From the NCBI GenBank assembly GCA_030706405.1, contig JAUZOO010000003.1, positions 310,001 to 374,000 on the forward strand: a DNA stretch of 64,000 nt, in the 5' to 3' direction. The notes below the pieces were generated by a model. That model saw nothing but the letters and a program-made list of their open reading frames with translations. It did no database searches and was not told the DNA's origin. The translations under genes were made by a program, and so were the position numbers. Source of the DNA: Bacteroidota bacterium. Its GTDB lineage: Bacteria > Bacteroidota > Bacteroidia > Bacteroidales > JAAUTT01. Shown in pieces: positions 15,491-36,609 of the stretch; the first letter of the stretch is position 1; every line of letters begins with the position of its first letter.

Positions 15491-15563
15491 CGGGGTGTAG
15501 TACAGTTGGTAGTATGCTTGGTTTGGGACCAAGAGGTCGTCGGTTCGAGTCCGGCCACCCCGA
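15491..15563 (+). tRNA. tRNA-Pro (TGG), integration target
   Basis: Acceptor stem CGGGGTG/CACCCCG, anticodon loop TTTGGGA (anticodon TGG) and T arm GGTTCGAGTCC. CCA is not encoded. The last bases belong to the att core repeated at 46471, so the element rebuilt the 3' end of the gene and it should stay functional. Confidence 0.96.
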
Positions 15564-15566
15564 CAA
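15556..15566. repeat. attL core (CACCCCGACAA)
   Basis: The 11-bp 3' end of tRNA-Pro is repeated exactly in direct orientation at 46471-46481. It marks the left junction of the element; the integrase gene starts 281 bp inside. Confidence 0.8.
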
Positions 15567-15847: not shown

Positions 15848-17107
15848 ATGAGAACAAACAACACTTTCGGAGTGCAGTTTATTACTCGCACTAACAAAGC
15901 CAAAAATGGTTTACTTCCTGTTTATGCCCGTATTTCCGTTGACTGTCACCGGATAGAGATATCACTCAAACAATTGGTTGACCCCGATAACTGGAATAAT
16001 GCAAAGGGGTCAGCCAAAGGTAAGAGTGCAGAAGTTCGGGCATTAAATACATTCTTGGAACAGGTTCGAAGTCGGTTAACCGAATGTTACCAGGAGCTGC
16101 TATTAAAGAAAAAACTTGTTACTGCAGAGGCAGTAAAAAACCTCTTTTGTGGTGTCGAAGAAAAGGAACACTCCCTGATGAGCTTGTTCGATTATCACAA
16201 CCAGGAAATGAAAAACGTCCTGGAATGGGGAACCATGAAAAACTACTATACCACAAAAACCTATTTCCAGCTATACCTGAAGGAAGTTCTTCACACGTCA
16301 GATATTTATCTTTCACAGCTTAGTTATAAATTCATAGTAGGTTACCAGAAATTCATGAAAGAGCGCAAACCGCTTTTACCCAAAAAGCCATGCGGGCAAA
16401 ATACGGTAATGAAACACATCGAGCGGCTCAGGAAGGTAGTTAACCTGGCTATCAAAAACGAGTGGTTGGACAGAGACCCTTTCATGAAATTTCAGCCTTC
16501 TTTCATCCGGAACGACAGGCAATTTTTAACAGCTGACGAATTAGCAGCCATTGAAGCAAGGAATTATTCCATTGTCAGGCTTCAACATGCGAAAGATATG
16601 TTTGTATTCAGTTGTTACACAGGCCTTGCTTATATCGATGCTTACAATCTAACACCTCAAAACCTGAGTCTTGGGATTGATGGCGGATATTGGATAACCA
16701 CCTGCAGGAAAAAAACGGACCAGCCGGTAAGAATTCCCTTGCTTCCAAAAGCAATGGAAATCATTGAAAAATACAAAACCCATCCGTATGTAATTGCTAA
16801 AGGGAAATTGCTTCCAGTTTATTCCAATCAGAAGCTGAACGCATACCTGAAAGAAATAGCTGACTTGTGCGGAATTGTAAAGCCTTTAACTTTCCACATT
16901 GCACGCCACACCTTTGCCACTACAGTAACCCTTACCAATGGTGTTCCCATCGAGACGGTTTCCAAACTATTGGGTCATACCAGCATAAAAACAACTCAGA
17001 TTTATGCCAAGGTTATCGAGAAGAAAGTAAGCGATGATATGAGAAATCTGAGAGATACTTTACAAAACAAACAAAGCAAAATTGATTCGAATGTCCGAGT
17101 TTCTTGA
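15848..17107 (+). CDS. int: Site-specific tyrosine recombinase (Bacteroidetes element integrase)
   Basis: 419 aa. An arm-binding domain (about 5-90), a SAM-like core-binding domain (about 110-205) and a catalytic domain (about 225-395). Catalytic residues seen are H350, R353 (HIARHTF), H377 (GHTS) and the nucleophile Y386 (IYAKV). At the usual first Arg position the sequence is CYTGLAYID with A261, a substitution also known in the IntDOT group, where this Arg is missing. It integrates and excises the element at tRNA-Pro. Position directly beside attL supports this. Confidence 0.95.
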   Translation: MRTNNTFGVQFITRTNKAKNGLLPVYARISVDCHRIEISLKQLVDPDNWNNAKGSAKGKSAEVRALNTFLEQVRSRLTECYQELLLKKKLVTAEAVKNLFCGVEEKEHSLMSLFDYHNQEMKNVLEWGTMKNYYTTKTYFQLYLKEVLHTSDIYLSQLSYKFIVGYQKFMKERKPLLPKKPCGQNTVMKHIERLRKVVNLAIKNEWLDRDPFMKFQPSFIRNDRQFLTADELAAIEARNYSIVRLQHAKDMFVFSCYTGLAYIDAYNLTPQNLSLGIDGGYWITTCRKKTDQPVRIPLLPKAMEIIEKYKTHPYVIAKGKLLPVYSNQKLNAYLKEIADLCGIVKPLTFHIARHTFATTVTLTNGVPIETVSKLLGHTSIKTTQIYAKVIEKKVSDDMRNLRDTLQNKQSKIDSNVRVS

Positions 17108-17282: not shown

Positions 17283-17672
17283 ATGTCAGCTGTTATGTTT
17301 CGATTAATCCTCATCATAGGAACGGGTAGTTTTATAGGCGGTGTTTCACGGTTTCTTACCTCCCGTTTTATCCAAAATCATCCTGCTTCAGCTTTCCCTT
17401 TTGGTACTTTTATCGTAAATGTTTTGGGTTGTTTTCTGATAGGCCTTTTTTATGGGCTTTCCGAAAGGGGTAATTTATTGAATGCCGAGTGGCGTATGTT
17501 TCTTACCGTCGGGTTCTGTGGCGGGTTTACCACCTTCTCTACATTTGCAAACGAAAATGTTGCCCTGCTCAAGGAAAGTGAATTTTTTTACTTTGCCCTA
17601 TATGCCGGCCTGAGTTTATTTATTGGACTCCTGGCTACTTATCTTGGAAATCTCCTTACTAAAATACTGTAA
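17283..17672 (+). CDS. crcB: Fluoride exporter CrcB/Fluc
   Basis: 129 aa, normal for a one-domain Fluc channel that works as an antiparallel dimer in the inner membrane and lets fluoride leave the cell. Four hydrophobic helices are seen. Family marks are SFIGGVSRF at the N-terminus, [14 protein letters not shown] with the pore Asn, and [12 protein letters not shown] with the Phe residues and central sodium-site region. A second ATG at 17295 is possible. It is the first gene after riboswitch 1. Confidence 0.97.
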
Positions 17673-17676: not shown

Positions 17677-18036
17677 ATGGAAACGAATAGCGAAGCTAAA
17701 TTATTACGAATTTTTATCAGTTCCACTGACAAATTTAAACATACACCTCTTTACGAAGTAATTGTTTTTGCTGCAAAACGGTATGGACTTTCAGGGGCTA
17801 CAGTACTTAGAGGTGTGATGGGATATGGGGCAAGTCATGTTATCAGTTCTATGAAATTTTGGGAATTTACTGAAAAGATGCCAATGGTAGTAGAAATCGT
17901 GGATGATGCTGAAAAGATTGAAAAATTTACTGAAACTATTCTGCCATATTTTGACAAAATCCGATATGGAGGGATGATTACCCTTGAAAAGGCCATTATT
18001 GTATTGCACAAACAAGGTACGAAAAAGAGTGTTTAA
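17677..18036 (+). CDS. DUF190 PII-like protein partner of CrcB
   Basis: 119 aa from the ATG 4 bp after the crcB stop; an upstream TTG in the same frame would overlap crcB and looks spurious. DUF190 proteins have a PII-like fold and often sit beside crcB. Seen here: KLLRIFISSTDK, YEVIVFAAKRYGLSGATVLRGVMGYG and MVVEIVDDAEKIEKF. A role as a small-ligand sensor tuning the channel is a reasonable guess but not shown. Confidence 0.92.
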   Translation: METNSEAKLLRIFISSTDKFKHTPLYEVIVFAAKRYGLSGATVLRGVMGYGASHVISSMKFWEFTEKMPMVVEIVDDAEKIEKFTETILPYFDKIRYGGMITLEKAIIVLHKQGTKKSV

Positions 18037-18054: not shown

Positions 18055-19335
18055 ATGAAAATCGAAGAAGTTTATGCCTTAGAGATTTTGGATTCAAGAG
18101 GCAACCCAACCGTTGAAGCAAACCTGACGTTGGAAGACGGTACAACAGCCCGTGCCATGGTACCGAGTGGTGCATCCACAGGTGAACGTGAAGCATGCGA
18201 ATTACGTGACGGTGATAAAAAGCGTTATGGAGGCAAAGGTGTCCTAAAAGCCGTGGAAAACGTAAATAAAAAGATTGCCCCTGAAATCGTGGGCAAAAGT
18301 TTTGTCAGTCAGCGGGAGCTTGATTATTTAATGATTGCACTGGACGGGTCAGCCAACAAATCAAAATTAGGTGCTAATGCTATTCTGGCGGTGTCTATGG
18401 CTTATGCCAGGGCTGAAGCTGAAAGTGCAGGAATTCCATTGTATCAGTATTTGGGTGGCAGTAATGCCCATTTGTTGCCCGTACCTTGTATGAACATTAT
18501 AAATGGAGGCAAACATGCCGATAACAATGTGGACTTTCAGGAATTCATGATTGCACCCCATAGTGCCGGTTCATTCACTGAAGCTATCCGCATGGGTATT
18601 GAAGTTTTTCATACATTGAAGGGAGTGTTAAAGGCCAAAGGTTACAGTACAGGTGTTGGCGATGAAGGAGGCTTTGCCCCCGATTTGAAATCGAATGACG
18701 AAGCTGTGGAAGTTATCCTGGAAGCCATTACCAAGGCCGGATATAAACCGGGCGGTGATGTTAGTATTTGCCTCGACCCGGCAGCCAGTGAACTATGGGA
18801 AGATGGAAAATACAAGATGTTTAAAAGTACCGGAAAATTCATGTCGAGTGAAGAACTGGTTAAGCTGTGGGAAAGCTGGGTGAACCAATATCCTATCGTT
18901 TTACTCGAAGACGGTTTGGCCGAAAACGATTGGAACGGTTGGAGAAATCTCACACAGACACTTGGGCAAAAAATAGAAATCGTAGGAGATGATTTGTTTT
19001 GTACCAACAAGGCAATATTAGCAGAAGGTATCGAAAAGGGTGTAGCTAATTCCATACTCATAAAACTGAACCAGATTGGAACGGTAACCGAAACACTCGA
19101 AACCATTGAACTTGCATACAAAAACAGTTACAACTGCTTTGTATCGCACCGTAGTGGTGAAACTCCCGATAGTTTTATTGCAGACCTTACAGTTGCAGTC
19201 AATGCAGGTCATTTAAAGACCGGAAGCGGTTGCCGTGGTGAACGCATTGAGAAGTTTAACCAATTGATGCGTATTGAACACCAGCTGGGTAAAAGCTCAA
19301 AATTTGCCGGTATTAAAGCTTTTAAAAATAAATAA
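18055..19335 (+). CDS. eno: Enolase
   Basis: 426 aa. Converts 2-phosphoglycerate to phosphoenolpyruvate; classically blocked by fluoride with phosphate and Mg. Key residues are present: E204 (GDEGGF), Mg ligands D241, E285 and D312, K337, SHRSGET at 364-370 and K388. After K388 the usual SxSRxxR-type segment is replaced by GSGCRGER, a departure worth noting. The gene starts 18 bp after DUF190 in the riboswitch 1 unit. It is probably an additional, fluoride-induced copy, as enolase is essential and this one is on a mobile element; the housekeeping copy is not in the window. Confidence 0.97.
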
Positions 19336-19341
19336 GCTTTT

Positions 19342-19430: not shown

Positions 19431-19477
19431 GGTGATGGAGTTCGCCTTTAACCGTCATAAATGACTGATGACTCCTG
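19431..19477 (+). promoter_or_regulatory. Fluoride riboswitch 2 (crcB motif)
   Basis: GGTGATGGAGTTCGCC, then TTTAACC, P2 GTCA/TGAC and CTGATGACTCCTG. P1 is GGAGT/ACTCC and the pseudoknot is formed by GG(T/C) with GCC. It is the closest of the three to the consensus. The first start codon of a thirteen-gene same-strand run is 30 bp downstream, so this aptamer probably controls all of it. Confidence 0.96.
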
Positions 19478-19506
19478 TTAATTAATGTATTAATATACAG
19501 TCATTT

Positions 19507-19776
19507 ATGAATATTCCAGATAACAATTCTGTTCTATTACTGTATCCAGGCTTCATGCGAGGGCAATTTTCCATATTTTCCCTGGCATTAGGTATTCTTT
19601 TGGGCATAATCTCAGGTCTTATGACCTTTCTAATCACTTATAACGAGTATATCCGCCACTATCCAACAAAGAAAGAACCTCTGAAAATGGCTTTGAAAGC
19701 CGCATTGGTCGCATTGTGCTTTTTCTTCGCACTATCAGTATTAATCGGCTTATTTCTAATGATATATGGAATATGA
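19507..19776 (+). CDS. Small two-helix membrane protein, unknown
   Basis: 89 aa. Two clear transmembrane helices (about 20-45 and 65-88) joined by a basic loop (TKKEPLK). I do not recognise a family. It is the first gene after riboswitch 2, and its TGA overlaps the ATG of the GTPase gene, which suggests coupled translation and a possible membrane partner for that GTPase. Confidence 0.75.
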   Translation: MNIPDNNSVLLLYPGFMRGQFSIFSLALGILLGIISGLMTFLITYNEYIRHYPTKKEPLKMALKAALVALCFFFALSVLIGLFLMIYGI

Positions 19777-21416
19777 ATGAGATTAAAGATATTATCAATG
19801 AAATATCCGGCATAAACCGGGCCATTGGCGCACCCGACCTGACAAAGCCCGTATCGGGCCTTTTGAACAGCAATGATAAAACCATTTATGTTGCTGTGTT
19901 GGGACAATTCAAATCGGGTAAAAGCTCGCTGGTGAATAGCATTATTGGTGAAAATCTTTTACCTGTTGGAGTTGTGCCGGTTACGGCCATTGTAACCCGC
20001 CTTCGTTTTGGTGTTCAACCTAAACTGATTATTCAATATTTAGATGGAAAAGAAACAAGCACAACCATAGATGAACTCCCTCAATATGTAACCGAAAAGC
20101 TGAATCCCGAAAATGTAAAGCAGGTTGCCCAGGCTATTGTGGAGCATCCTGCTTTGGAACCATTCAAAAATATAAGCCTGGTGGATACGCCCGGATTAGG
20201 CAGCCTTTACCGGCATAACAGCGAAACTACACAGCAATGGTTGCCATTTACCGGTGTTGCCATCATAAGTGTAAGTGCCGAACGTCCGTTGTCGGAAGAG
20301 GATATTAACCTGGTAAAAGGCATTGCACAATATTGTCCGGAAATAACATTGGTAATTACCAAAACGGATTTGTTTAAAAACGAAGAACTCACCGAGATAC
20401 GTTCCTATATCACCAGCTCGTTGAAGAATGCCATAAACAGGGATATTCCTGTTTTTGATTATTCAGTTTATCAAAATTCAGGAGAATGCCGGAAAACGCT
20501 GATTGAAAAATTGATATTGCCATTACATAAAAATGCAGCCAGCAAGCTCAGTGAAATAGCTCACCACAAAACAAATACCATCATCGGGCAAAGCCTTGCT
20601 TATACCGAACTGGCCTTACAGTCCGCCATGAAGCGTGAAGCTGAAAAAGATTCTGTAAACAAGCTGCTGCAGGAAATCAGGAACAATCGCCATCATCACG
20701 AACGTGAAATGCTGCTTTCCGGTTCTTCGTTTAAAGGTGAGGTGCGCGACAAACTCGAAAAAATCATTCTGCCTTTTCGGTCTTCAATTAATGAAAAGCT
20801 CAATAAACAATTCACTGGCGATTTTAAAAACTGGAAAGGTTCATTATACCAGGTCTCCCGGAAGTATGAAAAATGGCTGAACCAACAAATTGGGAATGAA
20901 GTCAAACAAATCGACAACACATGTTTCGACCAGGTGAACCAGATTGTGAGGGAAACCGCCGGTTATTACCAGTATTCAGCACTTCAATTCAGGCAGCGCT
21001 TGGACGAAAAATTATTTCAGGCGTTTGGGGTTCATATTCCCGAAGCTTACTGGCAAATAGATTTTACCGGCATAGATAAACCGGATATTACCATTTACAG
21101 GGCTTTTGATTCACATCTTGATACACTATTATTCTTTTTGCCTATGAAATGGTTTCACTCTCTGTTTTTCCTGCATTTTTCAAAACAAATCCCTTACGAG
21201 ACCGATAAAAACCTGCATCGCTACATATCGGAATTAAATGGAAAAATTAATAAAACCATCGATACCATTCACAGGCAGGCTCTGCAATACATCAGTAACG
21301 AAATCATGACAGTCGAAAACATATTGCAGCAGGCCACCAGCGACTACGCAATATTAAAGGATTACATGGAACGGTTGAAGAAAATTAAAACTCAAGTTTA
21401 TGCATATGATAGATAA
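19773..21416 (+). CDS. Dynamin-family GTPase
   Basis: 547 aa from the ATG that overlaps the previous stop. G1 is GQFKSGKS (44-51), G3 is DTPG (138-141) and G4 is TKTD (196-199). A long helical part follows (about 270-547) with a hydrophobic stretch near 470-490 (LLFFLPMKWFHSLFFL) that could insert into the membrane. This is the arrangement of bacterial dynamin-like proteins, which bind and remodel membranes. Its next gene, an antiporter, starts 17 bp inside its end. A role in membrane protection under fluoride stress is inference from its riboswitch operon. Confidence 0.85.
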   Translation: MNEIKDIINEISGINRAIGAPDLTKPVSGLLNSNDKTIYVAVLGQFKSGKSSLVNSIIGENLLPVGVVPVTAIVTRLRFGVQPKLIIQYLDGKETSTTIDELPQYVTEKLNPENVKQVAQAIVEHPALEPFKNISLVDTPGLGSLYRHNSETTQQWLPFTGVAIISVSAERPLSEEDINLVKGIAQYCPEITLVITKTDLFKNEELTEIRSYITSSLKNAINRDIPVFDYSVYQNSGECRKTLIEKLILPLHKNAASKLSEIAHHKTNTIIGQSLAYTELALQSAMKREAEKDSVNKLLQEIRNNRHHHEREMLLSGSSFKGEVRDKLEKIILPFRSSINEKLNKQFTGDFKNWKGSLYQVSRKYEKWLNQQIGNEVKQIDNTCFDQVNQIVRETAGYYQYSALQFRQRLDEKLFQAFGVHIPEAYWQIDFTGIDKPDITIYRAFDSHLDTLLFFLPMKWFHSLFFLHFSKQIPYETDKNLHRYISELNGKINKTIDTIHRQALQYISNEIMTVENILQQATSDYAILKDYMERLKKIKTQVYAYDR

Positions 21417-22611
21417 TATCTGGTTGATAGCTGCCCTCTGGATGGGAATGGCGCTCGTTGCAAGCCTGATTTCCATTCGCATAGGCATTTCGGTTGCTTT
21501 AATTGAAATTTTGGTAGGTGTGGTAGCCGGAAATTTTCTTGGAATCCATCAAACTACCCAATGGATTGACTTTCTGGCGATGCTCGGAAGCGGTGTTTTA
21601 ACTTTTCTGGCAGGGGCTGAAATAGACCCGGCATCGCTGAAGGCGAATTTTAAAGCAAGCATGGTTATAGGTGTGATTTCATTTGCCATTCCTTTTGTGA
21701 GTGTTTGGATGATTGCACAATTTGTTCTCGGATGGGGTTTACACCAGGCACAGATTGCAGGAATAGCACTTTCTACCACGTCAGTGGCAGTGGTCTATGC
21801 GGTAATGATTGAGAAAAAGCTCAGCGATACTTCCATGGGCAAGATGATTCTGGCAGCTTGTTTCATTACTGACTTTGGAACTGTACTTGCCCTGGGTGTC
21901 TTATTTGCCAACTTTAACCTGTGGATGGTGGTCTTTGTGGTAATAATGTGCGTGTTGCTTTGGTTTATGCCAAAATGGACAAAATACCTGATAGGTCATT
22001 TGGGAGCCAATAAAGTAAGCCAGCCCGAGGTAAAATTTATCCTGTTGGTATTGTTTTTCCTGGGTGGACTAGCTACTACTGCTAAAAGCGAAGCGGTACT
22101 GCCTGCTTACCTCATCGGTCTTGTGGTGGCAGGCGTATTCGTTCGCGACAAAACGTTAGTCGACCGTATGCGCACCATTGCCTTTACCATTTTTACCCCG
22201 TTTTATTTCATGAAAGCCGGGTTGTATGTTTCATTGCCTGTAATCTGGGTTTCGCTGGGTATTATCATTTTATTCCTGGTTATAAAAATAGTAACTAAGA
22301 TTATCGGTGTATATCCTTTCGCGAGGGTATTTCAAATGCGAAAAAAGGAATCTTCTTATACTACGCTGCTAATGGCAACCGGTTTAACATTCGGTACCAT
22401 ATCGGCTTTGTTCGGGCTGAATAATCATATCATCGACCAAAAACAATATACTATCCTGGTTACCGTGGTTATCCTCAGCGCCATTATCCCTACGCTCATT
22501 GCTCAAAAATTCTTTCAGCCTGAAATACATACAATGATTGCTTGGGGAAGGCTCCGGAGAATGACAGAAAACGGCAATAAAAAAAATAAAACTAAAAGGA
22601 GGACAAAATGA
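21400..22611 (+). CDS. CPA-family cation:proton antiporter
   Basis: 403 aa, about 11-13 membrane helices, of the sodium/hydrogen exchanger (PF00999) type, CPA2-like. The conserved stretch AGIALSTTSVAVVYAVMIEKKL and ACFITDFGTVLALGVLF holds the acidic residues of the ion site. No C-terminal TrkA domain is present. Starts at ATG 21400 or 21406, overlapping the GTPase gene. Antiporters recur in fluoride-switch regulons; it likely corrects proton or sodium balance when HF enters and dissociates inside the cell. Confidence 0.93.
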   Translation: MHMIDNIWLIAALWMGMALVASLISIRIGISVALIEILVGVVAGNFLGIHQTTQWIDFLAMLGSGVLTFLAGAEIDPASLKANFKASMVIGVISFAIPFVSVWMIAQFVLGWGLHQAQIAGIALSTTSVAVVYAVMIEKKLSDTSMGKMILAACFITDFGTVLALGVLFANFNLWMVVFVVIMCVLLWFMPKWTKYLIGHLGANKVSQPEVKFILLVLFFLGGLATTAKSEAVLPAYLIGLVVAGVFVRDKTLVDRMRTIAFTIFTPFYFMKAGLYVSLPVIWVSLGIIILFLVIKIVTKIIGVYPFARVFQMRKKESSYTTLLMATGLTFGTISALFGLNNHIIDQKQYTILVTVVILSAIIPTLIAQKFFQPEIHTMIAWGRLRRMTENGNKKNKTKRRTK

Positions 22612-23036
22612 TGTACCAAAACATTCTTGTTGCTTATGATGGTTCCGAGGGAGCCAAAAAAGCATTAAACAACTCGCTGGTATTGGCAAAGGCCTTAAAA
22701 GCAAAATTAATTGCTTTGTGGGTTGGAGGTTTCAGACCATATTACCATGAAACCGTAGCTGAAATTGATGAAGAGAACAAGGCCATTGATACTTTTTCGG
22801 CTAAACTGAAACGGGAAATTAAATGCAAATCGCAGGAGGAAGGCTATGAAATAGAGTATGCCCATTTGCAGGGCAATCCTGCTAAACTGATTGTTGAATT
22901 TGCAGAAAAAAATAAAATGGATTTAATAGTAATGGGCTGTGGCGGGCATTCCGGCCTGTGGGGAAACGACCTTGGTCATGTAACTGATAAAGTAAGTGAG
23001 AATGCCAAATGCAATGTATTGATTGCAAGAAAATAA
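22608..23036 (+). CDS. Universal stress protein UspA family
   Basis: 142 aa single Usp domain. MYQNILVAYDGSEGAKKAL at the N-terminus and the ATP-binding loop DLIVMGCGGHSGLWGNDLGHVTDKV near the C-terminus (G-2x-G-9x-G(S/T)-like) are seen. Start overlaps the antiporter stop (ATGATG/TGA). Usp genes are among those known to occur under fluoride riboswitches. Confidence 0.95.
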   Translation: MMYQNILVAYDGSEGAKKALNNSLVLAKALKAKLIALWVGGFRPYYHETVAEIDEENKAIDTFSAKLKREIKCKSQEEGYEIEYAHLQGNPAKLIVEFAEKNKMDLIVMGCGGHSGLWGNDLGHVTDKVSENAKCNVLIARK

Positions 23037-23041
23037 AGCTG

Positions 23042-23503
23042 ATGGAGATTGAAAGAAAATACTTGGTAGATAAAGAATTATGGCTAAAAGCAAATAAACC
23101 TGCAGGGGAATATATCATTCAGGGATATTTGACAACCGACATCGATAAGACCATAAGAATCCGTGTAACCGGGTCCGGTGGCTACATGACAATTAAAGGG
23201 AAAACAGTCAATATCTCTAGGGAAGAATACGAGTTCCCTGTTCCTTTCGAGATGGCAACCGAGCTGATACAAAAATTTTCTGAAGGCATTATTGAAAAGG
23301 TGCGCTATAAGGTTCCTTACAAAGGGAAAACCTGGGAGGTTGACGAATTTTCGGGGGACAATACGGGGCTGCTTATTGCTGAGGTTGAATTAACAGAAGA
23401 ACATGAAAACATTGAGTTACCTGAATGGATTGGCAAAGAGGTTTCTGATGACGCACGGTATTATAATGCCTGTTTAGTCAAACACCCGTTCGCCGCATGG
23501 TGA
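23042..23503 (+). CDS. CYTH-domain phosphohydrolase (triphosphate tunnel metalloenzyme)
   Basis: 153 aa from the ATG giving MEIERKYLV; a longer start at 23009 would overlap uspA. The ExExK motif is E2-x-E4-x-K6. The eight-strand tunnel carries alternating charged residues (IRIRVTGSGGYMTIKGKT, REEYEFPVP, EKVRYKVPYKGKTWEVDEF). Small single-domain members hydrolyse inorganic triphosphate or nucleoside triphosphates; some make cAMP. Inorganic triphosphatase is my preferred reading, given the phosphatase neighbours. Confidence 0.9.
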   Translation: MEIERKYLVDKELWLKANKPAGEYIIQGYLTTDIDKTIRIRVTGSGGYMTIKGKTVNISREEYEFPVPFEMATELIQKFSEGIIEKVRYKVPYKGKTWEVDEFSGDNTGLLIAEVELTEEHENIELPEWIGKEVSDDARYYNACLVKHPFAAW

Positions 23504-23538
23504 AGAAATTGGAACAATTTTAAAAATTACTGTTAAAA

Positions 23539-24009
23539 ATGATTACGATAGATATTCCGGGAAATAAGAAAATCGAGGCCGAACACCTGGTACTCGATTA
23601 TAATGGAACGCTGGCCATTGATGGAACATTAATTCAGGGAGTAAGGGAAATCCTGAACTCGCTGGCCGAAGACCTGAAAATTCATATCGTTACGGCTAAC
23701 ACATTTGGTAAAACAACCGAAAACCTTGTCGATATCGACTGTAATCTGGTTATTATCAATAACGATTACCAACAGTTACAAAAGGTAAAATACATCAGCG
23801 ACCTGGGCGAAAACGCCGTAATTGCCATAGGAAATGGTCTGAATGATGCGCTGATGCTAAAGAATGCTGCTTTGGGAATTGTGGTTATTCAAAAGGAAGG
23901 CGCGTCAGTTAAAAGCCTCGAAAATGCTGACATTGTGTGCACCAATATTTTGGATGCCCTGGAATTATTAAAAAACCCGCTACGGATGGTAGCAACTTTA
24001 CGAAATTAA
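23539..24009 (+). CDS. HAD-like protein of the soluble P-type ATPase group
   Basis: 156 aa. HAD motif I is D20-Y-N-G-T (the second Asp of the phosphatase form is Asn), motif II is VTANT and motif IV is GNGLNDALML. No cap domain and no membrane helices. This matches the small HAD proteins that resemble the P domain of P-type ATPases. The phosphate donor or substrate is unknown. 35 bp after the CYTH gene and 10 bp before the first PAP2 gene. Confidence 0.85.
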   Translation: MITIDIPGNKKIEAEHLVLDYNGTLAIDGTLIQGVREILNSLAEDLKIHIVTANTFGKTTENLVDIDCNLVIINNDYQQLQKVKYISDLGENAVIAIGNGLNDALMLKNAALGIVVIQKEGASVKSLENADIVCTNILDALELLKNPLRMVATLRN

Positions 24010-24019
24010 ACACTGTTAT

Positions 24020-24613
24020 ATGATAAAAAAGCTATTTCTGGTTATCCTCTTGTTTCCAACACTTAACCTTTGGTCTCAAAATCCGGATATCGACATTTTA
24101 AAGAATATTAATTTAAACAGGGATAAACATCTCGACAATACATTCAGGGCATTTACCAATTCAGCCGGTCCGATAGCCTACGGAGTGCCTATCCTGCTAA
24201 TTGGTATAAGTTTGGCGCGAAAGGACTCGCTTACATTTCAAAAATCATTGTACATAGGGGCTTCGGTTGTATCATCTGCAATAGTGTCAAATATTCTGAA
24301 ATATGCAGTTAACCGGCCAAGGCCGTTTGTCACATATCCTTTTTTGGAGAAGGTAACCAGTGGAGGAAGTCCCTCTTTCCCATCAGGTCATACCGCCGAT
24401 GCATTTTCAATTGCAACTTCGTTGAGTATTGCTTATCCCAAATGGTATATAATTATTCCTGCTTATGGCTGGGCTGGGGTTGTTGCCTATTCCCGAATGG
24501 ATTTGGGAGTCCATTATCCAAGCGATGTTTTGGCCGGTGCAATTATTGGAGCCGGTTCTGCATATCTGTGTTACAAAGGCCAGCAATGGCTTGCTAAAAA
24601 AAGAAAAAAATGA
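24020..24613 (+). CDS. PAP2 superfamily phosphatase 1
   Basis: 197 aa with a signal peptide (about 1-19) and four or more helices. The three motifs are intact: K-x6-RP (KYAVNRPRP), PSGH (SFPSGHTADAF) and SR-x5-H (SRMDLGVHYPSD). PAP2 enzymes dephosphorylate lipid phosphates such as undecaprenyl pyrophosphate or phosphatidate. Its stop overlaps the next gene by 4 bp. Confidence 0.93.
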   Translation: MIKKLFLVILLFPTLNLWSQNPDIDILKNINLNRDKHLDNTFRAFTNSAGPIAYGVPILLIGISLARKDSLTFQKSLYIGASVVSSAIVSNILKYAVNRPRPFVTYPFLEKVTSGGSPSFPSGHTADAFSIATSLSIAYPKWYIIIPAYGWAGVVAYSRMDLGVHYPSDVLAGAIIGAGSAYLCYKGQQWLAKKRKK

Positions 24614-25197
24614 TAGAATACCTGAATTCACTTGACACTAAATTGTTTCTCTTCCTCAACGGGTTGCACAATGCTTTCTTCGACCCCATTATGTATTGGT
24701 TTAGCGATAAACTGATTTGGGTTCCCATGTACGTAATCATAGCTTTCTTTATCATTTGGAAGTACAAAATGCGTGGCGTAATAATACTTTTAATTACAGG
24801 CCTTGTGATAGCCTTATGCGACCAAACAGCGTCGCATCTCATCAAGAACCTCACACACCGGTTGCGACCTTCGCACGAACCTGCTTTGGCTGGTTTGATA
24901 CATTTAAGCAAGGCAGGGCCAGGTGGATTATATGGCTTTGTTTCGTCGCATGCCGCTAATGCTTTTGGGGTAGCAACATTCCTATTTTTTGTACTTGATA
25001 GCAGGTTCCGGTTACTGAAATACTGGCTGTTTGTATGGGCTGCGTTAGTGTCATACAGCCGTATTTACAACGGGGTACACTATCCAGGTGATGTAATTGT
25101 GGCTGCATTGTTAAGCTCACTCATTGGGTGGGGAATGGCAAGACTTTATCAATATATCGAATATAAACGCGCAATAAAATATGATAAAATCGATTAG
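24610..25197 (+). CDS. PAP2 superfamily phosphatase 2
   Basis: 195 aa, about six helices, no signal peptide. Motif 1 is KNLTHRLRP, motif 3 is SRIYNGVHYPGD; motif 2 reads VSSH in place of PSGH but keeps the His. It resembles undecaprenyl-diphosphatase of the BcrC type. Overlaps both neighbours. Two adjacent lipid phosphatases under one fluoride switch suggest that undecaprenyl phosphate recycling, a Mg- and phosphate-dependent step, is a fluoride-sensitive point. Confidence 0.92.
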   Translation: MIEYLNSLDTKLFLFLNGLHNAFFDPIMYWFSDKLIWVPMYVIIAFFIIWKYKMRGVIILLITGLVIALCDQTASHLIKNLTHRLRPSHEPALAGLIHLSKAGPGGLYGFVSSHAANAFGVATFLFFVLDSRFRLLKYWLFVWAALVSYSRIYNGVHYPGDVIVAALLSSLIGWGMARLYQYIEYKRAIKYDKID

Positions 25198-26362
25198 AAT
25201 CGACACGGCCACAAAATTTGTGGTATTACTGGGTCTCATCAGTCTCTTTTCCGACATGACTTACGAGGCAGCCCGCAGCATCAATGGTTCGTTCCTGCAG
25301 CTTTTGGGAACAAACGGGGCAACCGTAGGATTGGTAGCTGGTATCGGTGAATTGTTCGGGTACGGGTTGAGGTTCGTTTCCGGTTACCTGGCAGACAAAA
25401 CTAAAAAGTATTGGTTGATATTAATTGCAGGATATTTGCTGAATCTGTTCTCCGTTCCATTGTTAGCTCTGGCCGGTTACTGGCAGCTTGCTGTAGTGTT
25501 AATGATTACCGAACGCATTGGAAAAGCAATACGCACACCTGCACGGGATGCGCTTCTCTCTTTTGGTACACAAAAAATGGGACGTGGCTGGGGGTATGGC
25601 TTGCACGAAGCAATGGACCAGATTGGGGCAACCGTAGGCCCTTTGTTAGTAAGTGCCGTCCTTTTTTATAAACACCAGGATTACCGTATGGCATTCGGCA
25701 TACTTGTTATCCCTGCCATCATTGCTTTCAGCATATTGTTAATTTGCAAATACCTGTATCCGAAACCGGAGAATCTCGAATTTAAAACAACATCCATTGT
25801 GTCGCAGGGCTTTCCTAAAAAATACTGGATTTATATTCTGGCTGTTGTTTTCATCGCTGCCGGTTATGTCGATTTTCCATTGATTGCCTTTCATTTCAAG
25901 GCTAAAGCGCTGATGAACGATTCAGCCATTCCCATATTTTATGCCGTTGCAATGGCAACGGATGCAATAGCAGCCCTGATTTTCGGAAAGATGTTCGACA
26001 AAATGGGAATTAAAACGCTCCTGCTGGCCATACTGCTTTCTTCTTTCTTCGCTCCCATGGTTTTCATGGGTGGCTTCAATTGGGCGCTGGCAGGCATGGT
26101 ACTTTGGGGTATCGGCATGGGCGCCCAGGAATCCATTCTTAAAGCTGAAATAGCCGAAATGATACCATCCGAAAGGCGTGGAACCGCATTCGGTTCTTTC
26201 AACGCCGCTTATGGCTTGTTCTGGTTTGCAGGAAGCGCACTCATGGGATACTTATATGATTTCTCAATTAAGGGATTGATAATATTTTCCGTCGCAACGC
26301 AATTAGTTGCAGCCTTTGTAATTTATTATCTCATCCGGCAACAAACGAAAAGAGTTCAATAA
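25181..26362 (+). CDS. MFS transporter
   Basis: 393 aa, about 12 membrane helices. The loop 2-3 region reads GYLADKTKKYW and the helix 4 region MITERIGKAIRTPARDALLS, typical of the MFS_1 drug/metabolite exporters. The start lies 17 bp inside the previous gene. Substrate unknown. Confidence 0.9.
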   Translation: MIKSIRIDTATKFVVLLGLISLFSDMTYEAARSINGSFLQLLGTNGATVGLVAGIGELFGYGLRFVSGYLADKTKKYWLILIAGYLLNLFSVPLLALAGYWQLAVVLMITERIGKAIRTPARDALLSFGTQKMGRGWGYGLHEAMDQIGATVGPLLVSAVLFYKHQDYRMAFGILVIPAIIAFSILLICKYLYPKPENLEFKTTSIVSQGFPKKYWIYILAVVFIAAGYVDFPLIAFHFKAKALMNDSAIPIFYAVAMATDAIAALIFGKMFDKMGIKTLLLAILLSSFFAPMVFMGGFNWALAGMVLWGIGMGAQESILKAEIAEMIPSERRGTAFGSFNAAYGLFWFAGSALMGYLYDFSIKGLIIFSVATQLVAAFVIYYLIRQQTKRVQ

Positions 26363-26383
26363 CCTGATAAACGAAAGTTAACG

Positions 26384-26797
26384 ATGTGGTGGATTTATGC
26401 TTTACTATCAGCCGTTTTTGCGGCGCTTACAGCTATCCTGGCTAAGGTTGGCATCAAAGGGATTAACTCCGATTTGGCTACTGCCATACGGACAATTTTT
26501 ATCTTACTCATAGCCTGGGGCATTGTCCTTTTCAGGAAAGAACTAAGCGGAATAAACGGTTTCTCAAAAAATAACTGGCTGTTTCTTGGTTTATCGGGAG
26601 TTGCTACGGGCTTGTCGTGGATATTTTATTTTAAAGCCTTGCAATTAGGTAAGGTATCGCAGGTCGCGCCCATCGACAAGCTAAGTGTTGCAATAGCCCT
26701 GATACTGTCTGTTGTGCTATTACACGAAGCAATTACCTGGAAAATCATCTTAGGAACTTGCCTTATTATAGGGGGCTCCATCATAATTATATTCTAA
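26384..26797 (+). CDS. Half-size EamA/DMT-family membrane protein
   Basis: 137 aa, five helices, one EamA domain where most family members have two. It should act as a dimer. The final helix pair LGTCLIIGGSIIIIF is typical. Substrate unknown. 21 bp after the MFS gene. Confidence 0.9.
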   Translation: MWWIYALLSAVFAALTAILAKVGIKGINSDLATAIRTIFILLIAWGIVLFRKELSGINGFSKNNWLFLGLSGVATGLSWIFYFKALQLGKVSQVAPIDKLSVAIALILSVVLLHEAITWKIILGTCLIIGGSIIIIF

Positions 26798-26820
26798 ACA
26801 ACTTCAGGAGGCACTTTGCA

Positions 26821-28308
26821 ATGACTTTCCAAAGCATATCGTTTAAAGATATAAATGAGAAGGAAGTTTTAGAGACGGCCGTCCCTGCCTTTTTCCCCGA
26901 TTTAAACCTCGACCAGATAACAAACTCCATTGTCTCCGGCAAAGACGAATATAATCTAAAACCGTTTTTCTATACTTCCCTGAACAATACCGGTTCAATC
27001 AGCTATCGCCAGGAAATATTTAAAGACCTTGAAAATCCTGCCCTGTTTAAGCATATAAACTCATTCGCTGAAAACATGCGAACCGTGCGTCAACAGCTTG
27101 TTCAAACAGACAAGCTTTATTATAAATACCACAGGGAACGGTTGTTTTTGAATATAATAATACTATACTGCGAAGCCCTTAATTCACTGGCAAACCATTT
27201 ATCCTTGGTCAATTTAACATCGCAGGGCTTTTTATCCTTTCGTGAATATCTTACGGGTTATGTACAATCTGTCCCATTTACTTCATTACTTGCCGAAGTA
27301 CGAAATATCATCGCCGGTCTGTCACCAATAAAATATAACATCCACATCAAAGGGCTCCATGTTCAGGTTCGCGACTATGAGTCGGAATCGGATTATAGTG
27401 CGGAAGTTGAAGAAACATTCTCAAAGTTTAAAATGGGAGCAGTAAAAGACTACAGTTCCGGATTCTCGCACCCGCTGGATATGAACTTTGTGGAAGCAAA
27501 AATACTGGATGGCGTTGCCAGTTTGCATCCTGGTATCTTTTTGCACCTTGACACTTTTTGTACGGAAAACCACAATTTTCAGGACGAAACAATAACCGTT
27601 TTTGACCGCGAAATACAGTTTTACATAGCATACCTGGATTATATCGCACCGCTCAGAAATGCAGGACTGAAATTCTGTTATCCCGGAGTTTCCGGCAGTA
27701 AAGAAATTTACGATTACGAAGGGTTCGACCTGGCTCTGGCATGGAAGCTTCACCATGAGAAATCATCCGTTGTTACCAACGATTTTTTTCTCAATGGCAA
27801 GGAACGCATAATGGTGGTATCGGGTCCGAACCAGGGCGGCAAAACCACCTTTGCCCGCACCTTCGGGCAATTGCATTTTTTGGCTGGTATCGGTTGTCCC
27901 GTTCCGGGAAGGGAAGCGCATCTTTTTCTTTACAACCGGCTCTTTACACATTTCGAAAAAGAAGAAGATATACAGAATCTCCGCAGCAAACTCGAAGACG
28001 ACCTGGTACGCATTTACGAAATTCTCTCGCAAGCCAGGCCTGACAGTATCATTATTCTGAACGAAATTCTTACCTCCACCACATTACAGGACGGTATTTT
28101 TCTGAGCAAAAACATCATGGAAAGAATAGTTCAACTGGATTCATTGTGTGTATGGGTCACATTCATTGACGAACTGGCTTCCTATTGCGAAAAAACCGTG
28201 AGCATGGTCGGAACGGTTATTCCGGAGAACCCTGCCTTACGCACATTCAAGATAGAACGAAAACCTGCCGACGGGCTTGCTTACGCTTTGTCCGTAGCTG
28301 AGAAATAA
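26821..28308 (+). CDS. MutS-like ATPase 1 (no mismatch-binding domain)
   Basis: 495 aa from the ATG at 26821. The N-terminal mismatch-recognition and connector domains of MutS are absent; helical lever/core-like domains precede an ABC-type MutS ATPase domain. Walker A is GPNQGGKTT (335-343). The Walker B position reads IIILNEI, so the usual Asp-Glu is Asn-Glu. The FTHFEKEED signature follows Walker A as in MutS homologues. It probably acts with the next gene. Such truncated MutS relatives do not take part in ordinary mismatch repair; the DNA or other target is unknown. Confidence 0.88.
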   Translation: MTFQSISFKDINEKEVLETAVPAFFPDLNLDQITNSIVSGKDEYNLKPFFYTSLNNTGSISYRQEIFKDLENPALFKHINSFAENMRTVRQQLVQTDKLYYKYHRERLFLNIIILYCEALNSLANHLSLVNLTSQGFLSFREYLTGYVQSVPFTSLLAEVRNIIAGLSPIKYNIHIKGLHVQVRDYESESDYSAEVEETFSKFKMGAVKDYSSGFSHPLDMNFVEAKILDGVASLHPGIFLHLDTFCTENHNFQDETITVFDREIQFYIAYLDYIAPLRNAGLKFCYPGVSGSKEIYDYEGFDLALAWKLHHEKSSVVTNDFFLNGKERIMVVSGPNQGGKTTFARTFGQLHFLAGIGCPVPGREAHLFLYNRLFTHFEKEEDIQNLRSKLEDDLVRIYEILSQARPDSIIILNEILTSTTLQDGIFLSKNIMERIVQLDSLCVWVTFIDELASYCEKTVSMVGTVIPENPALRTFKIERKPADGLAYALSVAEK

Positions 28309-28343
28309 CGGCTTACATATAATCTTTTAAAGGAACGTATTAA

Positions 28344-29852
28344 ATGAAAGTGTTTCTCATGTTTGAGAGTGATGATTTCGCCGTCCGGAAAAAATTTCCG
28401 CCGAATGGTGCTGCATTAAAGCAGGACCTGGAATTAAACACGCTTTGTAATACAATGGCATCTGGTGATGAATTTGTGTTTAAAATGGCAATGGATGCGA
28501 TTTTGGCCAGTTTGAGTAATGATGAGAAAACTATTTTATATCGCCAGGATATTCTTAAAGACAGTTTGGAAAACTTCGCTGTTGTCAGGGATATATACAA
28601 AATTGCAGTGGAAGCCCTTGAAAGCAGGAACAGGCATTGGTGGTTTCTTTCAACATCACCGACTTCAGTACTTTATAGTTCATTGTCTTCAATGAAAGAG
28701 TTGATGGGTTTTCTAAAGCAACTGAAGATGATAGCCGATGAAAATACAACCAGGTTCAGGTCGGAAGGCTTTACCAGGTTTTTCGCGATGCTTAAAAAAG
28801 AACTCGATGATGAATACTTTGCAAAAGTAGTACATCAGCTGTGGGAACTGGAATTCCATAATGGAGTTCTAATCAGCGCAGAACTGGGAAATGGCAATAA
28901 AGGCAGCCATTACACGCTTCGTAAACAAGTAACTGAAAAACTGGGTTGGATGCAACGGCTCTTAAACAAAAAGCCACAAGGTTACTCCTTTGTTATCAGT
29001 TCCCGTGATGAAAGTAGCATAAGGGCTTTGTCCGAACTAAAAAGCGAAGGGATTAACCATGTTGCCAATGCACTTGCTCAATCCATGGAACATATTCTCA
29101 GCTTCTTTAATATGCTGCGAACTGAGATAGCGTTTTATGTGGGCTGCTTGAATTTATATAACCGGCTTACCCAAATGGGAGAACCGGTTTCCTTCCCGTT
29201 CCCTTCAAATCCTGATAAGCGTTTACACGCTTTTGAAGGATTATACGATGTCTGCCTGGCATTAACCATGCAGCAAAAAATTGTAGGCAACAACCTGGCT
29301 GCCGATAGCAAAAATCTCGTCATTATTACGGGAGCTAACAAGGGTGGTAAATCCACATTTTTGCGAAGCATTGGTTTATCACAACTAATGATGCAATGCG
29401 GTATGTTCGTTCCGGCTGATTCTTTCAGGGCAAATATATGCGAGGCGTTGTTCACACACTTCAAACGGGAAGAAGATTCTGCAATGAACAGCGGAAAACT
29501 CGATGAGGAACTTAGCAGGATGAGCGACATTGCAGACACTATCACATCAAATTCCATGATACTTTTTAACGAATCGTTTGCTGCAACAAACGAAAGAGAA
29601 GGTTCTGAAATTGGAAGACAGATAGTGAATGCTTTATTGGAAAAACGTATCAAAGTTTTCTTCGTTACCCATTTATATGATTTTGCACATAGTTATTACA
29701 ACAAAAAGATGGAAAACGCCACGTTTTTGCTTGCCGAAAGGCAGACCGACGGAACACGGACTTTTAAGCTGATGGAGGGAGAACCCTTACAAACCAGCTT
29801 TGGTAAGGATTTGTATAATAAAATATTTGTCAGGCCTGATGCAAATACATGA
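28344..29852 (+). CDS. MutS-like ATPase 2
   Basis: 502 aa. Same layout as the gene before it: helical N-terminal half, then a MutS-type ATPase with Walker A TGANKGGKST, the LFTHFKREED signature, Walker B MILFNES (again Asn-Glu) and the dimer motif TNEREGSEIG. The two may form a heterodimer, because MutS ATPases use composite sites. The long central part has FSFFNMLRTEIAFYVGCLNLYNRL. 35 bp after the first gene. Confidence 0.88.
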   Translation: MKVFLMFESDDFAVRKKFPPNGAALKQDLELNTLCNTMASGDEFVFKMAMDAILASLSNDEKTILYRQDILKDSLENFAVVRDIYKIAVEALESRNRHWWFLSTSPTSVLYSSLSSMKELMGFLKQLKMIADENTTRFRSEGFTRFFAMLKKELDDEYFAKVVHQLWELEFHNGVLISAELGNGNKGSHYTLRKQVTEKLGWMQRLLNKKPQGYSFVISSRDESSIRALSELKSEGINHVANALAQSMEHILSFFNMLRTEIAFYVGCLNLYNRLTQMGEPVSFPFPSNPDKRLHAFEGLYDVCLALTMQQKIVGNNLAADSKNLVIITGANKGGKSTFLRSIGLSQLMMQCGMFVPADSFRANICEALFTHFKREEDSAMNSGKLDEELSRMSDIADTITSNSMILFNESFAATNEREGSEIGRQIVNALLEKRIKVFFVTHLYDFAHSYYNKKMENATFLLAERQTDGTRTFKLMEGEPLQTSFGKDLYNKIFVRPDANT

Positions 29853-29897
29853 AATTACTTGAATATTCAGATATTTAACAACTTAAAATCAAAAATT

Positions 29898-30203
29898 ATG
29901 AGCTTAAAGAAACAGTATTTAAAAACAAAAACAGTTTGTAAAGTCACATTCACAGTTCCTTCAGCAGTTGCCGGAGTTGCTAAACAGGTTAACCTGGTGG
30001 GTGAATTCAATAACTGGGATACGCAGAGCCTCCCGATGAAAAAGCTTAAAAATGGTGATTTTTCGGTTTCCCTGGAACTGGAAAGATTAAAAGAATACCA
30101 GTTCAAATACCTCATCGATGGCAAAGAATGGCAGAATGACCTGGAAGCTGATAAGTTCGCGCAAAATGAGTTTCAGGGCGAGAATTCGGTGGTTGTGGTT
30201 TAA
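29898..30203 (+). CDS. Single CBM48 (glycogen-binding/isoamylase N-terminal type) protein
   Basis: 101 aa from ATG 29898 (MSLKKQYLK). The domain reads KQVNLVGEFNNWD, PMKKLKNGDFSVSLEL and YQFKYLIDGKEWQND, the W/K pattern of AMPK-type glycogen-binding modules. No enzyme domain is attached. It is the last gene in the riboswitch 2 run, 45 bp after MutS-like 2. It may bind alpha-glucan that builds up when enolase is blocked; that is a guess. Confidence 0.88.
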   Translation: MSLKKQYLKTKTVCKVTFTVPSAVAGVAKQVNLVGEFNNWDTQSLPMKKLKNGDFSVSLELERLKEYQFKYLIDGKEWQNDLEADKFAQNEFQGENSVVVV

Positions 30204-35092: not shown

Positions 35093-35293
35093 CGGAATAG
35101 TTGGTAACAAAATGTTTAACCAAATATCAGTCGCTCGTATGTCAAAGATTCTTCTAAATTCAGTAACAGGATTCTCCTTTAAAACGGCTCCAAAACATCA
35201 AGGTTTGTTATGCTGTAAGAATTCCCATGTCCTTTTAATTTACTTCCAGACAATCATAACCATGCTAATCCTAGATAATTTCATAAATATATT

Positions 35294-36315: not shown

Positions 36316-36609
36316 ATGTCTACGGAAATTATCACAACTGACGATTTACGCGAGTTCAAAATTGAATTATTAGAGGAAATCAGGCAACTTTTCAAAGAGC
36401 ACAATGGTGAACCTTCCAAAAAATGGTTAAAATCTTATGAAGTTCGTAAAATCCTGAACATCTCACCAGGTACACTTCAGAACCTTCGTTTAAATGGCAC
36501 CCTGCCATACACCAAAATCGGTGGAGTAATGTACTACGATTACACCGACATTCAGGAAATGCTTCAATCCCGCAAACAGGCACAGCCAAATCTTTTCACG
36601 AGCCGGTAG
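36316..36609 (+). CDS. Excisionase-like HTH protein (helix-turn-helix 17)
   Basis: 97 aa. An N-terminal helix (EFKIELLEEIRQLFKEH) is followed by a MerR-like winged helix domain (about 38-88: WLKSYEVRKILNISPGTLQNLRLNGTLPYTKIGGVMYYDYTDI). Members act as excision or element regulatory proteins in Bacteroidetes elements. Located right after rteC as in related elements. Confidence 0.88.
   Translation: MSTEIITTDDLREFKIELLEEIRQLFKEHNGEPSKKWLKSYEVRKILNISPGTLQNLRLNGTLPYTKIGGVMYYDYTDIQEMLQSRKQAQPNLFTSR

Follow-up and report, generated by a model that had tools for sequence, protein, structure and literature searches.

A probable fluoride-inducible resistance island carried by an integrative mobile element of a Bacteroidota bacterium

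Results

The locus

The stretch of DNA analysed here (the window, 64,000 nucleotides of a Bacteroidota genome) contains three fluoride riboswitches and a run of 13 ATG-started open reading frames, all of them on the plus strand at 19507-30203 in the ORF list of the window. The features are:

15491..15564, +, tRNA-Pro(TGG), putative integration site (ARAGORN, Rfam)
15556..15566, +, left attachment core, 11 bp, tRNA-Pro 3' end (identical 11-mer at 46471-46481)
15848..17107, +, tyrosine recombinase, integrase (Phage_int_SAM_5, Phage_integrase, Arm-DNA-bind_5)
17196-17258, +, fluoride riboswitch 1 (RF01734, 50.1 bits)
17283..17672, +, crcB, Fluc fluoride channel (PF02537, E 7e-31)
17677..18036, +, DUF190 protein (PF02641)
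18055..19335, +, enolase, eno (PF00113/PF03952)
19422-19484, +, fluoride riboswitch 2 (RF01734, 55.6 bits)
19507..19776, +, 89-aa protein, small membrane protein from sequence reading (4-nt overlap with next gene)
19773..21416, +, dynamin-like GTPase (PF00350, E 1.6e-21)
21400..22611, +, cation:proton antiporter (PF00999)
22608..23036, +, universal stress protein, Usp (PF00582)
23042..23503, +, CYTH phosphohydrolase (PF01928)
23539..24009, +, HAD-like protein (weak NCBIfam SerB/P-type matches)
24020..24613, +, PAP2 phosphatase a (PF01569)
24610..25197, +, PAP2 phosphatase b (PF01569)
25181..26362, +, MFS transporter (PF07690)
26384..26797, +, EamA transporter, single 137-aa unit (PF00892)
26821..28308, +, MutSa, MutS-core ATPase (PF00488)
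28344..29852, +, MutSb, MutS-core ATPase (PF00488)
29898..30203, +, CBM48/AMPK1_CBM protein, last gene of the run (PF16561, PF02922)
35037-35099, +, fluoride riboswitch 3 (RF01734, 52.4 bits)
35139..35342, +, 67-codon leader ORF behind switch 3 (overlaps rteC start by 49 nt, other frame)
35294..36136, +, rteC (PF09357, E 1.5e-45)
36316..36609, +, HTH_17 protein, excisionase-like (PF12728)
46471..46481, +, right attachment core (11-bp repeat)

All three switches exceed the gathering score of RF01734 (34 bits) and are the only fluoride riboswitches in the genome. Switch 2 precedes the run and switch 3 the leader ORF and rteC; switch 1, with crcB-DUF190-eno behind it, lies directly upstream of the run, and ~16 genes of the island stand behind the three switches. 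An earlier note on this DNA had spoken of one fluoride riboswitch. A single switch does head the run, but those at 17196-17258 and 35037-35099 were overlooked, and since one mobile element holds all three the description is an understatement.

The tight same-strand packing claimed for the run is borne out: in run order its junctions measure -4, -17, -4, +5, +35, +10, -4, -17, +21, +23, +35 and +45 nt, that is, five overlaps and gaps of 5-45 nt. Pfam (Dynamin_N, Na_H_Exchanger, Usp, CYTH, PAP2 twice, MFS_1, EamA, MutS_V twice, AMPK1_CBM/CBM_48) agrees with the domain names given earlier, except for the HAD-like protein (156 aa), which has no Pfam match at E<=1e-3 and weak P-type-ATPase and SerB matches in NCBIfam. 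Terminators that would split the run were not found at any junction, the plus-strand terminator-like sites within it all being intragenic. The Bacteroidota promoter consensus (TTTG, spacer, TAnnTTTG) occurs 0 times in the run, and this says little because just 0.14 occurrences are expected.

In the predicted ligand-free folds of all three switches the first ORF has its start region buried (z -2.95 for switch 2, -3.19 and -4.28 for the other two); at switch 2, 13 bp cover the AUG at 19507.

The ~30.9-kb stretch between the repeats looks like one integrative element at tRNA-Pro, with boundaries that rest on the 11-bp repeat and on a right end in common with a related element, 90% identical and stopping at the same attachment core. 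Three integrases of a same-genus genome, G003, are 72-77% identical to that of the element. Candidate empty tRNA-Pro sites in G003 and G004 were rejected, the ORFs downstream being an integrase and an excisionase-like gene; a clean empty site was not seen because both hold other elements. Like the CTnDOT-family elements of Bacteroidota, the element combines a SAM_5-type tyrosine integrase, RteC and an excisionase-like HTH_17 protein. It differs from them in its cargo, which is fluoride genes and not the tetracycline resistance which that family carries, and in a fluoride riboswitch that lies 5' of rteC. A Pfam scan of its ORFs, covering some of those at 36-46 kb, recognised no relaxase, mobilisation or transfer genes. 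In the window a single in-frame stop behind codon 201 breaks rteC. Common fluoride control of rteC was considered and rejected, since of 30 rteC loci examined (37 genomes gave a match) only two have a switch, and both are the sibling islands described below.

Related islands

A sibling island is found in a genome of another class (G215), 96.6% identical over 9140 nt. The first ten genes of the run are common to both in the same order; MutSa, MutSb and the CBM48 gene are missing from the sibling stretch, and thus are not essential to the island. Most genes in common differ mainly by synonymous codons (31 synonymous and 1 nonsynonymous for enolase, 19 and 0 for EamA). The 89-aa gene has 0 synonymous and 2 nonsynonymous differences, so that its coding role is unsupported; its single Pfam match is under the cut-off. 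In the sibling the leader ORF is also open, a 27-nt indel keeping the frame, and rteC is intact.

Another Bacteroidota island, L050, holds 11 of the 13 run families, reordered, behind two switches; the start-burying fold is predicted for the one at 13962 and is not clearly seen for that at 4445. Conservation of gene order, proposed earlier as a check, holds for ten genes in the sibling but not for the eleven families of L050. In the locus L175 a CYTH relative also follows crcB-DUF190, and on the Klebsiella pneumoniae plasmid NZ_LR890738.1 an antiporter-Usp-MutSa-MutSb series lies beside crcB, gpmA, eno, PPase, PAP2 and ClC genes. No relative of the CBM48 protein was found in L050 or in viral contigs; because L050 and the sibling stretch both lack it, this gene may be a passenger.

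MutSa-MutSb loci and proteins

In the best 80 of 301 MutSb relatives, drawn from many phyla, MutSa lies directly 5' of MutSb in 80 of 80 loci. Fluoride switches occur in 54 of these, and directly before MutSa in 33 of 71 readable ones; the other 26, some on short contigs, have no switch at E 0.01. The riboswitch model used, R1, is largely a sequence profile, since the long-range pairing provides its only 6 pairs (RNAalifold), and 15 of its 25 training sequences came from 7 of the 80 loci searched; when those 7 are left out, 47 of 73 loci have a switch. No switch matched in 30 control loci (29 MutS1/MutS2-type; 107 kb). The genomes of 33 loci, mostly long ones and not a random choice, were searched at E<=0.001 (the search used for the sibling island took E<=1e-8 and stricter filters): 85 of their 137 switches fall inside the ~20-kb loci, where 0.66 would be expected, locus contigs being matched on coordinates only. 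One genome, G622, has no fluoride switch anywhere at E<=0.001.

The commonest neighbour families per 80 loci are eno (29), dynamin (26), MFS (22), DUF190/Usp (22), crcB (18) and the Na+/H+ antiporter (13). This clustering is loose: by direct blastp to the protein of the window, dynamin is found in 20 loci and not 26. HAD-like relatives occur in 7 loci; CYTH, PAP2 and EamA relatives in one only, L050. Among 30 dynamin genes of the 33 genomes, 12 lie within 700 nt behind a fluoride switch, 21 within 10 kb of one, and 9 have none within 10 kb. By genomic context, both dynamin and the MutSa-MutSb pair recur in the bacterial fluoride response. In the phylum sample 393 of 395 genomes matched MutSb; besides the proteins of the window itself, the matches listed are 24-34% identical to its ATPase end (best E 1e-17), and a true orthologue appears in the list for the genome of the window only. 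Phages gave one 27% match.

Walker B reads N-E instead of D-E in 74 of 74 MutSa rows (including the window; 74 and not 81 because rows matching over <=350 aa were left out) and in 80 of 81 MutSb rows, against D-E in 29 of 29 mutS-type and 20 of 20 KamC comparison loci. MutSa also has T-F in place of T-H, with T447-F448 invariant in 41 rows. In an ATPase-domain tree of every third MutSa and MutSb row (25 and 27), the two form their own clade apart from MutS1, MutS2 and KamC (support 0.983). Against the NCBIfam models of MutS1/MutS2 they reach 67-83 bits, where the cut-offs lie at 400-642 (for MutS2, 67.2 and 77.8 against 400), and for KamC NF052383 51.8 and 74.5 against 300. At E<=1e-3 in Pfam MutS_V alone passes the cut-off; the mismatch-recognition domain I and domains II-IV of MutS1 and the Smr domain were not found. 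What they share with MutS1, MutS2 and KamC is the domain V ATPase and the MutS-like core fold; they differ in the invariable pairing and the tie to fluoride switches.

Discussion

Taken together, gene content and comparison make it very probable that an integrative mobile element here carries a resistance island which fluoride induces. Mobility is indicated by the integrase, the att repeats and the near-identical copy in another class. The run itself looks like a single fluoride-response unit, because its families recur, reordered, behind switches elsewhere and its differences from the sibling are mainly synonymous. It seems improbable that only the first genes answer fluoride and that the rest are cargo which a mobile element gathered by chance behind a strong promoter. 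Such a pile-up would fit the variable gene order, the absence of the CBM48 gene from the other islands and of MutSa-MutSb from the sibling stretch, the rarity of CYTH, PAP2 and EamA near the pair, and the restriction of translational switches to the first gene; against it stand the recurrence in L050, the finding of dynamin, antiporter, Usp, MFS, HAD and MutSa-MutSb behind switches in other phyla, and the mainly synonymous change. The broad fluoride response suggested in the earlier note appears mostly right, except for DNA or nucleotide upkeep.

Judging from the folds, at each switch without fluoride the 3' part of the aptamer would pair with the region where the first ORF starts; bound fluoride would free this region, so that translation could begin. 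As a translation-type switch directly governs one gene, control of thirteen needs coupling or polarity, which we assume: coupling, together with protection from polarity, might relay translation along the tightly packed genes, some of which overlap. From the families and published fluoride biology, CrcB would export fluoride, the antiporter would restore pH and ions, and the extra enolase would stand in for the enzyme that fluoride inhibits. The Usp, CYTH, HAD and PAP2 proteins may answer stress and phosphate-ester imbalance. Our best guess for dynamin is that it tends the membrane under HF stress.

The DNA-upkeep reading was based on the name MutS, and domain V only, low scores and the altered Walker B leave it unsupported. 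We consider it unlikely that MutSa-MutSb serves as a DNA-repair complex, called up in response to DNA damage from fluoride stress: its fold and top Foldseek matches (MutS, MutS2 and MSH proteins) would suit this, as would the proposal of Weinberg 2010, in the available text of PMC2864571, that the then-unknown crcB ligand reflects DNA-damaging stress, yet besides the features just named no further repair genes are recognised in the run. An action on ribosomes like that of MutS2, clearing fluoride-caused translation stalls, also has a low probability. The best Foldseek match of MutSa is Bacillus subtilis MutS2 on a collided disome, and among the matches listed the highest target-normalised TM (up to 0.64) belongs to the MutS2 core of Thermus thermophilus, whereas the separate clade and the lack of Smr speak against it. 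Our best guess remains a two-part ATP-driven remodeller, not a mismatch-repair enzyme. That switch 3 makes the element fluoride-responsive, fluoride raising RteC and hence excision and transfer, is possible, if doubtful. In both sibling islands rteC is preceded by switch 3, its aptamer and platform identical and its flanks different, the integrase and HTH_17 genes are present, and RteC controls CTnDOT excision; on the other side, rteC is broken in the window, the first ORF behind the switch is the short leader and not rteC, only the sibling copies among the rteC loci have a switch, and transfer genes are unrecognised among the ORFs scanned. A joint reading can be offered tentatively, in which a fluoride-specific two-part MutS-core ATPase, both parts with a natural Walker-B Asp-to-Asn change, and riboswitch-controlled dynamins belong to a widespread fluoride system, passed on horizontally, whose range runs from Bacteroidota to Chloroflexota and Bacillota and to plasmids of clinical enterobacteria; the pair would remodel or release Mg-fluoride-trapped enzymes or ribosomes, with no part in DNA repair, and switch 3 with rteC would gate mobility.

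Several members described earlier as not normally linked to fluoride do have a record. The available texts of PMC2864571 and PMC11139923 give crcB, eno, Na+/H+ antiporter, HAD, mutS and formate hydrogen lyase as RF01734 targets: mutS was noted with the crcB riboswitch in 2010 (PMC2864571), and antiporters, HAD proteins and enolase are linked to it in PMC11139923, as are UspA and enolase in PMC5533749. The aptamer family is that of this published regulon; the mutS here differs as a tandem pair of a distinct clade. No link of dynamin to riboswitch and fluoride together was found in the literature searched. Baker 2012 is reportedly a further source on the fluoride riboswitch and its regulon. The closest parallel is GI3 of Enterobacter cloacae FRM, whose ppaC-uspA-eno-gpmA-crcB-orf5249 operon matters for fluoride resistance by RNA-seq, qRT-PCR and knock-out/complementation (PMC5533749). 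As far as the available text of that source describes it, GI3 shares with our element a fluoride riboswitch, crcB, eno and usp on a horizontally acquired island. The element of the window differs in having three switches and, at tRNA-Pro, a tyrosine integrase. Dynamin, antiporter, CYTH, HAD, two PAP2, MFS, EamA and MutSa-MutSb genes are additional to it, and behind its switches 1 and 2 no PPase or gpmA genes were recognised.

The usual account of fluoride resistance is an exporter and a few spare enzymes. Our comparison shows a recurring multi-gene fluoride programme on islands and plasmids of many phyla, with two frequent members, the paired MutS-like ATPase and the dynamin-like GTPase, that have no known role in it. 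Both offer directly testable leads to the damage that fluoride does in cells, of use in work on organofluorine degradation and on tolerance of fluoride. If switch 3 works, the movement of a mobile element would be under the control of a riboswitch that senses the very toxin against which the element's cargo protects. MutS domain V should not be read as DNA repair. Plasmid copies of the pair are annotated as mismatch repair, MutS domain V or hypothetical protein.

A thirteen-gene run behind a fluoride switch

Three fluoride riboswitches (switches 1-3) are discussed with the following features:

15556-15566 and 46471-46481, 11 bp of the tRNA-Pro end and its second copy
15848-17107, tyrosine integrase, adjoining tRNA-Pro
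17196, switch 1, preceding crcB, DUF190 and enolase
19422-19484, RF01734 aptamer of switch 2
19507-30203 (+), 13 genes; domains in order: small membrane protein, Dynamin_N, Na_H_Exchanger, Usp, CYTH, HAD-like, PAP2, PAP2, MFS_1, EamA, MutS_V (MutSa), MutS_V (MutSb), CBM48
35037, switch 3, preceding a 67-codon leader ORF with a 49-nt overlap with the start of rteC (PF09357), a CTnDOT-type regulator gene

The earlier note had described a same-strand run of 13 genes behind a fluoride riboswitch, and with the aptamer located and the junctions recomputed this observation is right: five junctions overlap (by 4, 17, 4, 4 and 17 nt) and the remaining gaps are 5-45 nt. Signals that might split the run were looked for. 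No plus-strand terminator-like site lies between its genes, all such sites being inside genes, and the Bacteroidota promoter pattern occurs 0 times (0.14 expected), its -7 element alone once versus 4.6 in mononucleotide shuffles.

Folded without ligand, all three switches form aptamer stem 1 and a long helix in which the 3' part of the aptamer pairs with the start region of the next ORF (z of -2.95, -3.19 and -4.28). The helices differ in sequence while the pairing is kept, and that of switch 2 covers the AUG at 19507. Position 13962 of L050, a Bacteroidota locus discussed below, gives the same kind of ligand-free fold; at L050:4445 a start-region helix is not clearly seen. Because the ligand-free helices cover start regions, the folding suggests switches of the translational ON type. 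For all 13 genes to be controlled, the effect of switch 2 would then have to be carried along the run, by coupling where genes overlap or by polarity.

A probable mobile island and its sibling

The whole genome (4.93 Mb, 21 contigs) has three RF01734 matches, all within the window. We take the roughly 30.9 kb from 15556 to 46481 to be one integrative element, because an integrase lies at tRNA-Pro, the 11-bp repeat is present and the right end is common with an element of the same-genus genome G003. That other element has the same last ~2.5 kb at 90% identity, ends at the same core and diverges beyond, and three G003 integrases are 72-77% identical to that of the window. No clean empty site was seen, the tRNA-Pro of G003 and G004 being occupied. 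Several related integrative elements of G003 (C142, C23 and C280) have a similar backbone, different cargo and no fluoride riboswitch.

A sibling was found in G215, a genome of the same phylum listed outside the class. Over 9140 nt it is 96.6% identical to window 17672-26811. Pieces of 96-97% identity, and one of 152 nt at 88%, account for most of 32005-40905, from which 33418-34625 is missing. DUF190, enolase and switch 2 stand in common order with run genes one to ten, and different cargo replaces MutSa, MutSb, CBM48 and the TauE-SBP stretch.

Codon differences, window versus G215 (synonymous/nonsynonymous)
eno, 31/1
NaH, 31/1
MFS, 36/3
EamA, 19/0
PAPa, 12/1
HAD, 18/3
dyn, 38/9
PAPb, 32/13
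CYTH, 16/6
Usp, 2/1 (uninformative)
89-aa gene, 0/2 (uninformative)

Aptamer and platform of switch 3 are identical in both genomes; rteC has one in-frame stop in the window and is intact in G215. A fluoride switch stands beside rteC in two of the 30 rteC loci searched, namely these two. Judged by its sequence, the island would belong to a general kind already known, that of mobile islands for fluoride resistance, with some components lacking an explanation.

The minus strand from the run to switch 3 (30229-34506) holds a TauE-like exporter, a solute-binding protein, fragments of PAS and REC, and a transporter of CitMHS type, read as NhaD-like; G215 has different genes in part of this stretch. 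At 42812-43770 lies a stretch with no convincing gene and with copies 70-87% identical elsewhere in genome and genus. A perfect 48-nt palindrome (50071-50118) between the convergent ORFs 47268-50051 (+) and 50291-50650 (-) is probably a two-way terminator.

The MutSa-MutSb pair and fluoride switches

Scanning genome contigs with MutSb gave 301 relatives, and in all of the best 80 (54-69% identity) MutSa lies directly 5' of MutSb; one Anaerolineales locus (L122) has two such pairs in succession. Our fluoride-switch model R1 (E<=0.01) found 106 switches in 54 of the 80 loci, seven of these 54 having supplied part of its training sequences. Among the 71 loci whose 5' sequence was readable, 33 have a switch immediately ahead of MutSa, and 30 control loci (29 with MutS1/MutS2-type genes, 107 kb) gave no match. 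In 33 of the host genomes, mostly those with long loci and not a random draw, a whole-genome Rfam search (E<=0.001) found switches in 32; the comparison figure, 46 of 395 genomes of a phylum sample, was obtained at E<=1e-8 with stricter filters. Inside the ~20-kb loci lie 85 of the 137 switches of these 33 genomes, versus 0.66 expected. A magnesium (M-box) riboswitch is seen at L062:1711-1889, downstream of an MFS match in a locus with a fluoride switch and the pair.

MutS_V is the only domain recognised above cut-off in either protein, and their NCBIfam scores are far under the MutS1, MutS2 and KamC cut-offs. In the ATPase-domain tree MutSa and MutSb form one group (52/52 rows, support 0.983) apart from those three families. 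The Walker-B aspartate is asparagine in 74/74 MutSa and 80/81 MutSb rows, unlike KamC (aspartate in 20/20 loci) and mutS-type loci (29/29), and an invariant T-F in MutSa stands where MutSb has T-H. Predicted models (mean pLDDT 87.5 for MutSa, 83.2 for MutSb) matched MutS/MutS2 cores. The PDB includes a laboratory mutant of E. coli MutS, D693N (3k0s), which by its numbering would be changed at the same position. It is an attractive thought that the asparagine might alter Mg2+ handling and so link the pair to Mg-fluoride. Phyla are mixed in the MutSb tree, where 16 groups show 30 label changes and 15 would be the minimum; this fits transfer without proving it.

Neighbouring families and a probable fluoride response

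When neighbour ORFs in the 80 loci are clustered, the pair is followed in rank by six families that the island itself has: enolase 29, dynamin 26, MFS 22, DUF190/Usp 22, crcB 18 and antiporter 13. HAD-like proteins (7/80) come after five families absent from the window. Direct blastp gave eno 31, MFS 22, dynamin 20, crcB 18, DUF190 15, Usp 13, NaH 13, HAD 7, and CYTH, PAP2 and EamA one each, all in L050. The first gene behind the 106 switches is MutSa in 33, unassigned in 14, dynamin in 11, enolase in 9, antiporter in 8, F12 (a family read as formate-hydrogenlyase-like) in 8, crcB in 6, MFS in 6 and others in 6; five have no gene within 500 nt. One locus (L109) carries ten of the families found near the pair in a single run, and elsewhere a CYTH relative stands behind crcB-DUF190 (L175) and dynamin behind a fluoride switch (L196). 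Among the 33 genomes, 16 have Dynamin_N genes (30, E<=1e-12); a same-strand fluoride switch lies <=700 nt upstream of the domain in 12, one lies within 10 kb of 21, and nine have none near.

L050 carries crcB-DUF190-antiporter-Usp-CYTH-(read as Hsp70-like)-HAD-MutSa-MutSb-eno and, behind a second switch, MFS-PAP2-PAP2-(read as TauE-like)-EamA-dynamin. Conservation of gene order beside fluoride switches extends to the first ten run genes in G215, and L050 is arranged otherwise. The earlier interpretation of a broad fluoride response is borne out in part, as the island's own families recur with the pair near switches; the pair itself stands apart from MutS1/MutS2 in its ATPase domains. Some members that it listed as not normally linked to fluoride had been linked before: mutS was noted behind the crcB motif in 2010 (PMC2864571), and HAD, along with antiporters and enolase, is described with fluoride riboswitches (PMC11139923). 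In the literature searched, with most subscription journals outside its coverage, the MutSa-MutSb pair was nowhere described, and no paper joined dynamin, riboswitch and fluoride.

Relatives on plasmids

MutSb relatives occur in 47 plasmid records, 18 of them from Klebsiella. The mobilizable IncFII plasmid NZ_LR890738.1 of K. pneumoniae (L203) carries a large fluoride-resistance gene set including antiporter-Usp-MutSa-MutSb, with P-type ATPase, crcB, gpmA, eno, Usp, Mn-PPase, PAP2, ClC and DUF190 as annotated neighbours and two weak R1 matches (E 5e-4 and 7e-4). By gene content, its crcB, gpmA, eno, usp and ppaC repeat the set described for the E. cloacae GI3 operon (PMC5533749). Two IS26 copies border the plasmid set at one end, and toxin-antitoxin genes lie at its other end.
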